Shown: piece after piece, positions 3,118-19,622 of the stretch
Position numbering within the stretch: the first letter of the stretch is position 1
How the letters are laid out: each line of letters opens with the position of its first letter
Source of the DNA: Bacteroidota bacterium
GTDB taxonomy: Bacteria > Bacteroidota > Bacteroidia > B-17B0 > Aurantibacillaceae
Length of the DNA stretch: 64,000 bases
Direction: 5' to 3'
Assembly: GCA_030692515.1 (NCBI GenBank)
Contig: JAUXZS010000020.1
Coordinates: forward strand, 372,001 to 436,000
The notes under the pieces: generated by a model
The model's database searches: none
The model's input: the letters and a program-made list of their open reading frames with translations, nothing else
What the model was told of the DNA's origin: nothing
Program-made: the position numbers and the translations under genes

Positions 3118-3689
3118 CGCGTTAGCAAACACAGCTTGTCCTCCTCTGGAGGAGTTGCCCAAAGGGCGGAGATGGATGAAATTATTCTTTCTTTTCTTGG
3201 TATTCAGTTCTTATAAATTTCTCGTCTCAACTTTTTCTTGACAAAAAGTTGAATAAAAGTCAAGGCTTAAAAAAAATTCTTTGATTTTATTGTTTTGATT
3301 TTTATAGTCGCCCTGAATGTGACTTCTTTGGAATTATAAACTAGTCAGGGCTCATTGAAATTTTAAAATGGGATTATGCAAAAATGTATTAGCTTAATTA
3401 CATTTTAAAATTACCACTGACTGAAAAACCAAGCCGAAAAATCTTACAGAATTTTTTTAATGCCACTAAACTGTATTTACTCCGCGTAAGCACACATAGC
3501 TTATCCTCCTCGGGAGGAGGTGTCTGAAAGGCGGAGGAGGAAAATGTAAACTTCTTTCATTAAAAAAATCAATCAGCGTCATTGCGAAGCTTTTCGCCCG
3601 AAGAAATCTCAAACTATGAGTGAGACCCGATAGCTATCGGGTGCTTTCTTCATCGCAATGACGAGTTAAAAGCTGGTCGTTGAATTTAA
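3118..3689. repeat. Composite dispersed repeat, copy 1 (near-duplicate of 15062-15705)
   Basis: Long stretches almost identical to 15062-15705, e.g. CGCCCTGAATGTGACTTCTTTGGAATTATAAACTAGTCAGGGCTCATTGAAATTTTAAA. Confidence 0.9.
3577..3663. repeat. Dispersed palindromic repeat, family A copy 2
   Basis: CGTCATTGCGAAG...CATCGCAATGACG with internal perfect 16-bp palindrome CCCGATAGCTATCGGG (3626-3641). Confidence 0.85.
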
Positions 3690-3906: not shown

Positions 3907-5178
3907 TCATCTCGATATAAAAAAACGTTTACTAACGTTTAGCATATTGTCATCCTGACGATAGGAAGGATCTGTATTTAAATCCCTCGTGCCTCGGGAT
4001 GACAGTTTTAAAAAGTAAACTCCATTTGCTAGCTCCATAGTGTTTATTAACACAGTCTTCACTTTGACTCCGCTCAGTGTGACATCTTTAAAAACAATTT
4101 CTTCTTCTCGTATTACTTGCCCTAAGGAATTTATAATTTGAATATGCGCATCTCGATACGCTTCGCTACTCGATGTGACAAATTCTACATTTAAAATTTC
4201 ATTTGCAGGATTTGGATACAGCCTCACCCCCAACCCCTCTCCGAGGGAGAGGGGAGTTAAGCCTAAGCCACTTGCGTGCACCACAACCGTATCATATTTT
4301 ATGTTGCCGCAAATATCCTGTTTTACCATATAGGTTTGGGTTGTTGTTGCAACTGTAACAGTAATACCTGCTGCTGTATCAATCGCTGTTGTTGTATTAG
4401 GTAATTTATACCACATACAAGCCTCATCTATACCAACATCTTGTGGCCTGCCTAAATAAACGGTGTTGGTTGGTATGCCCCATACATCTGCTCCTGCATA
4501 GGCAGGTAAATCAATATCAATAACACTTACGTCGTCTATATTTGCATCGCACCAAGCATAACTGACAGTTGGTTGTATTTGAGTTTTCATTGTAGCAGCA
4601 TCACTTTTAAAATTTCCAATTACCATAAATTTTTCTGTTCCTGTTGCAACAAATGTCCCAGTAATTAATCCCCAATTTAAAGTGTCAATAATAATATTTC
4701 CTATTGGATTTTGTATTTGAGGTGTTAAATAAGTTAGAGGCTTTAATGTATAATTAATTGTATCTAATCCATTATTGCCAAAATATGCGCCATACGAATC
4801 AATACCAAATGCCGAAATATTAATATTATTAACATAAAACTTCACACAGTAAGTAGATCCTGTATTTAATTTTGCCTTGAGCCTATTCTTAAAGTAATTT
4901 CTATTAATATTTGGATTGCAAAAATTAACATCACATAACATTGTTCCTAAAACAAATCCATTACCATGGCGTGGATGTTGATATGTATAACCACTATTCG
5001 GAACATTTCCATAACACACATTTAAAGCTTGAAAACCAGGCTTAGTAGTGTCGATATTTCCCCAAGATTTTATTTTAAAATAGAAAGGGTTATTGCAATC
5101 AATCAAATCTTCAAATCCACCATTACTAACATAATTTGCTAGTTGTGCTTTATAATCAGTGGATAAAAGAAAAAACAA
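3907..5178 (-). CDS. T9SS type A sorting domain-containing protein
   Basis: YPNPANEILNVEF...IQIINSLGQVI...ANGVYFLKLS...KRFFISR at the C-terminus. Start is TTG and the signal peptide looks shortened, so the 5' end is uncertain. Confidence 0.75.
   Translation of the reverse strand: MFFLLSTDYKAQLANYVSNGGFEDLIDCNNPFYFKIKSWGNIDTTKPGFQALNVCYGNVPNSGYTYQHPRHGNGFVLGTMLCDVNFCNPNINRNYFKNRLKAKLNTGSTYCVKFYVNNINISAFGIDSYGAYFGNNGLDTINYTLKPLTYLTPQIQNPIGNIIIDTLNWGLITGTFVATGTEKFMVIGNFKSDAATMKTQIQPTVSYAWCDANIDDVSVIDIDLPAYAGADVWGIPTNTVYLGRPQDVGIDEACMWYKLPNTTTAIDTAAGITVTVATTTQTYMVKQDICGNIKYDTVVVHASGLGLTPLSLGEGLGVRLYPNPANEILNVEFVTSSSEAYRDAHIQIINSLGQVIREEEIVFKDVTLSGVKVKTVLINTMELANGVYFLKLSSRGTRDLNTDPSYRQDDNMLNVSKRFFISR
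3949..4003. repeat. Palindrome-ended repeat inside CDS
   Basis: GTCATCC...GGGATGAC; encodes SRGTRDLNTDPSYRQDDNMLN on the minus strand. Confidence 0.7.
4221..4263. repeat. Repeat-like insertion inside CDS
   Basis: CTCACCCCCAACCCCTCTCCGAGGGAGAGGGGAG; encodes LTPLSLGEGLGVR immediately before YPNPAN. Confidence 0.7.
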
Positions 5179-14839: not shown

Positions 14840-14891
14840 TTTTGTTAGATGAATGATTTTCTTCTTTTGTCCTCCTCTTGAGTAGGTGCCT

Positions 14892-14940
14892 TATTGCGAT
14901 AACTCCTATGTTTGACATTGCTTCCTTCGTCGCAATGACG
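14892..14940. repeat. Dispersed palindromic repeat, family A copy 3 (truncated)
   Basis: ATTGCTTCCTTCGTCGCAATGACGAGTTAA matches the 3' half of copies 1 and 4. Confidence 0.75.
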
Positions 14941-15061
14941 AGTTAATAAGTTGGAGGTTGAATCTGTAGAATCGTATTTAAGTTTCTAAAGTAATCCATT
15001 TAACCTTCCCCTTTCTTTTGTCTTGACGCAAAATTTTAAAAGGCCATTATGCTTTGGGTGC

Positions 15062-15705
15062 TCCGCTTAAGTGCACGCAGTTTGTCCTCCTCTTGAGGAG
15101 GTGCCCAAAGGGCGGAGGAAGATGAAATTATTCTTTCTTTTCTTAGTATTCAGTTATGATAAATTTCTCGCCTCAACTTTTTCTTGACAAAAAGTTGAAT
15201 AAAAGTCAAGGCTTAAAAAAAATTCTTTGATTTTATTGTTTTACTCACACACTTTCTGGCTCATCGCTAAAAATGTTTGCCAAACATTTTCTTAACGCTC
15301 CGCCCTCTTTCGCCCTGAATGTGACTTCTTTGGAATTATAAACTAGTCAGGGCTCATTGAAATTTTAAACTGGGATTATGCAAAAATGTATTAGCTTAAT
15401 TACATTTTAAAATTACCACTGACTGAAAAACCAAGCCAAAAAATCTTACAGAATTTTTTTAATGCCACTAAACTGTATTTGCTTCGCGTTAGCAAACACA
15501 GCTTGTCCTCCTCTTGAGGAGGTGCCTGAAAGGCGGAGGAGGAATTGTATACTTCCATCATTAATCAAAACATTCAGCGTTATTGCGAGGAGTTTTGCGT
15601 TTAAGCAAAATGCTGACGAAGCAATCTCATCTATTGTTTGAGGCCCGATAGTTATCGGGTATTTCCTTCGTCGCAATGACGAGTTAACAAACTGGTCGCT
15701 ATCAA
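15062..15705. repeat. Composite dispersed repeat, copy 2
   Basis: Near-identical to 3118-3689, with extra sequence around 15244-15310 (CTCACACACTTTCTGGCTCATCGC...). Confidence 0.9.
15578..15681. repeat. Dispersed palindromic repeat, family A copy 4
   Basis: CGTTATTGCGAGGAGTTTTGCG...CTTCGTCGCAATGACG with CCCGATAGTTATCGGG inside. Confidence 0.85.
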
Positions 15706-18678: not shown

Positions 18679-18689
18679 TCCTTTATTTC

Positions 18690-19290
18690 TATTTTTTCCA
18701 CTTTTAGCGCAGGGCATATGAGTCGAAAATATTTGAGCCAGCATTATGTGGCGGCACAATTTTTCTTCTTTACTTTTCCTTAGTCGAAAAGTAAACAAAA
18801 GACAAGGCAAAACGATCTTTCTTCCCACTCTTGATTTTTCTTGAAAGGCTAATAAAGTAAAAAATTCTGTTTCTCGTTCTTATTTGGAAAGAACAGAATT
18901 TTAAACGGCAAGCGCCTTTATTGCCTTTCCACAAAAAATCAATTCACCCTACCCCGCACCAAGCGTTTTGCCTACCCGACGCACAGATAACTCAAACACC
19001 TAACCACGAAGCTACAGCCGTAAACCTGTCCGCGTAAGCACACCACGCGAGCCGACCTCATAAGATTTTGCACAGCAAATGTGTATTGCACATTTGAGCG
19101 AGGAAGTGCTTTGGCTTTGTTGTTTGCTTTCGCACGTGCCCGCTCAATGCTTCGCATTGCCGTCATCAAGCAAAAAGTGACGACAGAAATAAAAGTTCAG
19201 GAATTATTTACATCTTGATTTTTTGGCTACCAACACATCGTCTCGCTCAATGCTTCGCATTGCCGTGGTCAAGAAAAAAGTGACGCCAAA
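18690..19290. repeat. Relatively GC-rich repeat-like intergenic region
   Basis: Contains CGCTCAATGCTTCGCATTGCCGT twice (19141-, 19244-), related to the reverse complement at 3031-3052, plus the hairpin element at 18769. Confidence 0.6.
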
Positions 19291-19352
19291 ACCTATTAGT
19301 GCAATAACTTTTTGTCGAATGATAATTCTATTTTGGTCAAAACGAGAAAATA

Positions 19353-19622
19353 TTAATGCAACAATTTTACGATCTCGTTTAAATCTAAATTTTTTACGTA
19401 TTCAAATAAAATTTGATTATTTTCTTGAATTTCTATACTTACAATTATATTTTGTTCTCTGTTAAAAAAAACTTCTACGTAAAAATCCTCTACCAAAAAC
19501 AAAGTAATATTACATTCGTAGTACACCTTTTCGGATATTACTTCGCTGTAGTTTAATAGAAACTCAGTCTTATCTGCAATAGTTAGCTTTATAAATTCTT
19601 CTTTGTTCATTTCGTTACTCAT
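19353..19622 (-). CDS. Hypothetical protein
   Basis: 89-aa acidic ORF with balanced composition; preferred over the overlapping plus-strand ORF. Confidence 0.5.
   Translation of the reverse strand: MSNEMNKEEFIKLTIADKTEFLLNYSEVISEKVYYECNITLFLVEDFYVEVFFNREQNIIVSIEIQENNQILFEYVKNLDLNEIVKLLH

Follow-up and report, generated by a model that had tools for sequence, protein, structure and literature searches.

A dispersed, folded intergenic repeat of Bacteroidota with a terminal hairpin whose loop pairs with a downstream segment

The window, a 64,000-nucleotide stretch of a Bacteroidota genome, contains three copies of a hairpin on its plus strand. Copy 1 lies downstream of a plus-strand gene (47–2851) whose product carries a caspase-like peptidase domain (Peptidase_C14) and is followed by a minus-strand gene (3907–5178) for a T9SS sorting-domain protein from a large family of paralogs. 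The 10-bp stem of copy 1, S1 (3227–3252; arms 3227–3236 and 3243–3252), encloses the loop CTTGAC (3237–3242), and a linker (3253–3258) leads to GTCAAG (3259–3264), the exact complement of the loop. We refer to this partner segment as S2′ and to its helix with the loop, for which covariation is described below, as S2. In copy 2, S1 (15173–15198) again carries the loop CTTGAC and S2′ is GTCAAG (15205–15210), the stretch 15173–15210 being identical to copy 1. Copy 3 has its S1 at 18769–18795 (arms 18769–18778 and 18786–18795), the loop CTTAGTC at 18779–18785 and the S2′ GACAAGG at 18801–18807, which pairs with the loop through one bulged A; the same sequence occurs in four other genomes or loci. 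The S1 folding energy is about −8 to −9 kcal/mol on either strand (RNA folding, a nested prediction that cannot show S2). A sequence-only reading of this DNA had reported the three hairpins, the loop-to-downstream complementarity of each and three compensated stem changes in copy 3, all of which are real. It had also drawn its support from three copies. However, copies 1 and 2 lie in one duplicated block (93% identity over 168 bp and 86% over 391 bp), and so count as a single data point that alone proved little, and the module of copy 3 is of another type.

Each hairpin is followed by a longer inverted repeat on the same strand. In copy 1, the arms of this closing stem, P3, are GGCTTAAAAAAAATTCT (3264–3280) and AGAATTTTTTTAATGCC (3448–3464), an inverted repeat (I1) also seen in a close relative (locus L020), which gives a module (module A) of 3227–3464. 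The same inverted repeat in copy 2 pairs 15210–15226 with 15450–15466 and, with the domain that it encloses, spans 15210–15466. The closing helix of copy 3 (module Y), GGCAAAACG/CGTTTTGCC, and its enclosed domain extend over approximately 18806–18974, as supported by two further loci (L153 and L086). Other repeats share these intergenic regions. Copies 1 and 2 are flanked by another dispersed palindrome family, ATTGCGA...TTCGTCGCAATGACGAG (2935–2972, 3576–3672, 14888–14945 and 15577–15695), which resembles CGTC-tagged REPs, and a repeated module, TTGTCCTCCTC..GAGGAGGTGCCCAAAGGGCGGAGGA, occurs as many as three times in one intergenic region (3120–3180, 3480–3545, 14866–14890, 15081–15122 and 15502–15543). 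The multicopy gene beside copy 1 was considered as a mobility gene and rejected, as it belongs to the T9SS-secreted paralog family. Paralogs of it at G000:C18:292449 and G000:C42:199 have one such hairpin up to about 200 bp from the 3′ end, which suggests that gene and repeat were duplicated together.

Copy 3 sits in an insertion-like block (18679–19356) between two convergent genes, which comprises the Y module, a centre and broken hairpin ends. It forms the Y end of what is an inverted-pair type of block; the opposite end is a broken hairpin on the minus strand (19141–19188), consisting of GTCACTTTTTGCTTGAT and then the palindrome CGGCAATGCGAAGCATTG. Half-hairpins (GTCACTTTTTGCTTGAT / GTCACTTTTTTCTTGACC) are found at 19141–19188 and 19244–19291, their 3′ half replaced by the palindrome CGGCAATGCGAAGCATTGAGCG, and look like one palindromic repeat nested in another. 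In three sister species the stop codons of the two genes abut, whereas the window has ~670 bp of module sequence at this place and UBA2475 (G020) has about 650 bp with other modules. At the empty site, the flanks have diverged and been edited so far that no target-site duplication can be delimited. Empty and occupied states of one orthologous site indicate gain and loss, as for mobile repeats.

The wider search of Bacteroidota that the sequence-only reading had proposed was run with patterns. Scans of 398 and 299 Bacteroidota genomes held S1 and the A-rich linker fixed and left the loop and the downstream segment free. The second pattern, a single narrow one, matched in 46 of the 299 genomes, covering 28 of 142 genera, and its reversed control matched in one genome only. 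The loop and partner change together among the matches: CTTGAT/ATCAAG, CTTGAA/TTCAAG, CTTGAC/GTCAAG, CTTGGC/GCCAAG and AAGTC/GACTT were all seen, along with the shorter candidate pairs GCCG/CGGC and GGTG/CACC. Mean loop–partner complementarity was 3.68, compared with 3.04 when partners were permuted (maximum of 3.42 in 2,000 permutations), and permutation remained significant for loops lacking CTTG or CTTA (p=0.0005). Among 52 distinct 47-mers, the S2 helix was 91.3% paired versus 82.0% after shuffling, and its covariation score of 0.244 (0.094 shuffled) was reached by 0 of 500 shuffles, statistics that are inflated by the shared ancestry of the copies. Co-varying pair types were UA/AU/CG and AU/GC; the column pair 15–32, for example, held 21 UA, 13 AU and 10 CG. 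The signal collapses once the partner is slid by 1–3 columns. Because slides destroy it and because the pair types recur in separate genera, shared ancestry is a disfavoured account of the S2 signal. S1 and S2 pairs were counted directly, as a covariance model cannot hold a pseudoknot and the variable domain would need hand alignment.

On this phylum-wide evidence, pairing of the loop with the downstream segment beyond chance is strongly supported. One feature of an H-type pseudoknot, a loop that pairs, with covariation, with a segment outside its own hairpin, was found here; a true pseudoknot would also hold both helices in one molecule at the same time. The earlier argument for selection on structure rather than chance is likewise supported: the downstream partner is conserved, both helices are kept through compensatory changes across many genera, and the observations named there as refuting it were not made.

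The hairpins are one end of a dispersed, non-coding, folded repeat, usually of 150–270 nt, that is found across the phylum Bacteroidota. Homology between copies begins about 10–30 bp outside the hairpin and runs for 190–500 bp to one side; this one-sided homology that starts at the hairpin marks the hairpin as a terminus. Within a module, S1 comes first, then the A-rich linker, S2′ and the long stem P3 that closes the fold, together with a folded domain that varies. P3 starts directly after S2′, with arms such as GACTGCAAAAAAATGAC/GTCATTTTTTTGAGGTC, GCGCTTAAAAAGTATTA/TAATACTTTTAATGCGC and GGCTGCAAATCCTTGGC/GCCAAGGATTTAATGCC, and its helix score is at least 9 in 127 of 181 copies versus 9 of 181 in shuffles (matches of both strands pooled). 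Many distant copies have in common the motif GRCTG...TGAGGYC in P3 with TAA.../TTAACG inside it, and a sub-hairpin with the internal-loop core AACTC...CTCAAACAG, a core with 15 occurrences close to hairpins and one at another place in the loci fetched. S1, S2 and P3 are preserved through compensatory changes. In module X, for example, compensatory columns read CG12/TA12 and CG13/GC11. Of the sequence-only interpretation, then, the two helices stand and the stand-alone switch does not: each hairpin terminates a larger structured repeat that is dispersed and varies in its presence between species.

Exact hairpin copies number 7 in the genome of the window (0 for a reversed control pattern), and an S1-only pattern finds ~15 related hairpins there, a second type, GTCACTTTTGGCGCGCAAAAGTAACCAAAACGC, that is about as frequent, and more in relatives; resting on patterns, these copy numbers are lower bounds. 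Modules occur singly, in tandem or as tail-to-tail inverted pairs. A second module is often found 400–730 bp away in inverted orientation, which produces a block of hairpin, module, centre, module and hairpin, and same-orientation tandem units of about 290–520 bp are present in other Bacteroidota genera. Same-orientation clusters at three loci (L243, L244 and L246) include 8 copies in 12 kb (genome G149) and 294-bp tandem units (genome G133). The modules are intergenic and mostly downstream of genes: of 73 copies placed, 34 have convergent and 9 divergent neighbouring genes, and the orientation of the copies is inconsistent. At one orthologous locus, two species share a hairpin and differ in the internal domain, which is A in the first species and B in the second; module X at this locus also shows compensatory changes.

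A search for machinery that could mobilize the modules covered their neighbours and known enzyme families. Neighbouring proteins (n=99) showed no common or enriched family, and no parent transposon with the same ends was found among the loci examined. Y1/RAYT genes are present in these genomes, and none was flanked by the hairpin among the loci fetched; a RAYT link was rejected, as the palindromes near Y1_Tnp genes are other ones and not the S1 hairpin. A reverse transcriptase was similarly rejected as the mover, because RVT_1 had no match in 5 of 8 element-rich genomes and none of those examined is hairpin-flanked. An IS4-like DDE transposase gene (locus L001, 189–1469; G000:C19:238815–240353) has its ends, CCCCGATAGCTATCGAATTCGCGTCAAG, inside a chimeric module; as an insertion beside a copy, it is not the source of the modules and was dismissed as their autonomous partner. 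The palindrome CCCGATAGCTATCGGG also takes the place of S2′ in several X modules without the insertion sequence. Viral contigs gave no match to one exact hairpin form.

The two strands of a module are not equivalent with respect to non-Watson–Crick pairs. On the strand read here, with S1 before S2′, A.C exceeds G.T in module B (17 versus 6 cells), in the shared pairs of module X after re-orienting (17 versus 4), in P3 with its invariant T.G column excluded (22 versus 11, p=0.08) and in the sub-hairpin (9 versus 1, p=0.02), although these cells are not independent, as copies share ancestry. An excess of A.C over G.T on one strand points to single-strand folding of the other. This wobble asymmetry thus suggests that the modules fold on the strand opposite to the one read, where the geometry of the pseudoknot would be tighter. 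By contrast, the strand read is favoured by the T.G and G.A pairs that keep fixed positions in P3, by the A-rich linker and by the pseudoknot geometry. An H-type geometry on that strand has 0–2 nt crossing the 6-bp S2 and about 6–9 A-rich nt along S1, spacings with which such a fold is sterically plausible. The evidence on the functional strand, wobble asymmetry on one side and pseudoknot geometry on the other, is contradictory.

From the inverted pairs, the empty sites in sister species, the siting downstream of genes and the lack of an orientation rule or a common neighbour family, we infer that the module is mobile and non-autonomous, of the REP/MITE kind. We consider it somewhat probable that the modules are a dispersed element of this kind whose end folds when single-stranded and is recognized by trans-acting machinery. 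In a single-stranded module (RNA, or single-stranded DNA during replication or transposition), the end would fold into S1, and the S1 loop would dock on the neighbouring S2′ segment, either as a pseudoknot or as two alternating hairpins. Trans-acting mobilization machinery would then recognize the folded shape. Against the mobile-element reading, no transposase or reverse transcriptase was linked to the modules among the loci and genomes examined, and the contradictory strand evidence also weighs against it. A bolder version is tentative, and we hold it to be rather unlikely as a whole: the modules would be mobile structured RNAs of ~150–270 nt, a class spread over the phylum and new to science. 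Each would have a terminal hairpin with a docked loop and a conserved core at an internal loop, and an enzyme from outside the RAYT and RVT_1 families examined would propagate them in trans.

Several other accounts would explain part of these data. The modules may be transcribed into a putative structured RNA that serves the cell, chiefly within 3′ UTRs (in mRNA stability, in processing or by binding a protein), and that was spread by duplication and selected for its RNA function, in which case the pseudoknot would be a genuine RNA fold. Compensatory pairs throughout the phylum and the majority position downstream of genes agree with such an RNA, and the conserved unpaired motifs fit it and a mobile element equally well; however, presence and absence at orthologous loci, both orientations relative to genes, unrelated neighbouring genes and the swap of internal domains at one locus do not, and we regard this account as possible but doubtful. 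Paired changes could also arise with neither selection nor function if template switching at palindromes rewrites one arm to match its partner. Such correction does occur at quasi-palindromes, and the hairpins here are AT-rich and the elements carry nested palindromes. Yet such correction would remove mismatches, and several have lasted throughout the phylum (T.G and G.A in P3 and the AACTC/CTCAAACAG internal loop); it also leaves both the conservation of the linker and the consistent bias of A.C over G.T unexplained, which renders it improbable.

Readings of the hairpin as a duplex site or a transcription signal fare worse. S1 and S2 are both inverted repeats, and the module ends in paired blocks resemble terminal inverted repeats, so a dyad site for a DNA-binding protein that reads the duplex, or for a DDE transposase, might be imagined, its inverted half-sites shifting with protein specificity. 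Loops CTTGAT, CTTGAA and CTTGAC, with their differing S2 pairs, nevertheless coexist in the genome of the window, and covariation reaches through P3 and the domain over 150–270 nt; we deem this reading very improbable. An ordinary intrinsic terminator or attenuator would account for a hairpin downstream of genes, but a terminator scan lists other sites and not S1, the stem is A+T-rich, the tract after the hairpin in the direction read is A-rich rather than T-rich (the flank on the other strand is also A-rich) and the larger module would be left unexplained, all of which makes it highly implausible.

Rfam searches at gathering thresholds returned only tRNA, and at E≤1 a single sub-threshold speF match (E 0.43), so the repeat is widespread and structured with no Rfam family. 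Searches of the open-access literature turned up no description of the motif; subscription papers and preprints lay outside this search, and an earlier description is possible. With these modules, a set of sequences is at hand for covariation analysis of a pseudoknot-like interaction, and they allow a clear-cut test of whether repeats between genes are mobile, or function as RNA or as single-stranded DNA. In Pistol-type and H-type pseudoknots, the segment that pairs with the hairpin loop lies a few nucleotides downstream of the hairpin; the Bacteroidota module shares this pairing but differs in having no Rfam match. Like MITEs, the modules are short, non-coding and multicopy, with presence/absence at orthologous loci, and their inverted-pair blocks carry terminal inverted repeats, which single modules do not. 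Unlike MITEs, the modules are commonly single and then lack a second inverted end, and the loci examined held no parent transposon with the same ends. STAXI is a repeated pseudoknot motif that occurs in tandem near DNA-handling genes and is debated as RNA or single-stranded DNA (PMC2864571). The modules are likewise a repeated motif, a candidate pseudoknot, that could act as either, but they have no gene preference and another architecture.

In their genomic behaviour, the modules are like REP and BIME sequences. REPs are hairpins of 20–40 bp with a GTAG or CGTC tag (TGTC, CCTC) beside the stem, the GTAG kind being associated with RAYT (Y1) transposase genes and the CGTC kind having no dedicated transposase (PMC3733652). 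A tag of the GTAG/CGTC type accompanies 33 of 41 copies in the genus of the window versus 2 of 47 in other Bacteroidota, and this rarity outside the genus, together with module size, rules out membership in the CGTC-REPs. The modules differ from REP/BIME in their length of 150–270 nt, with a docked loop, a closing stem and a domain. As in REP/BIME (PMC3733652), they are dispersed intergenic palindromes, present singly or as inverted pairs, that lie mostly downstream of genes or between convergent ones; the inverted dimers and gene-downstream siting expected of REPs were both found. They also resemble the CGTC REPs in that no dedicated transposase was found among the loci examined, and they bear on what mobilizes REP-like repeats of this kind.
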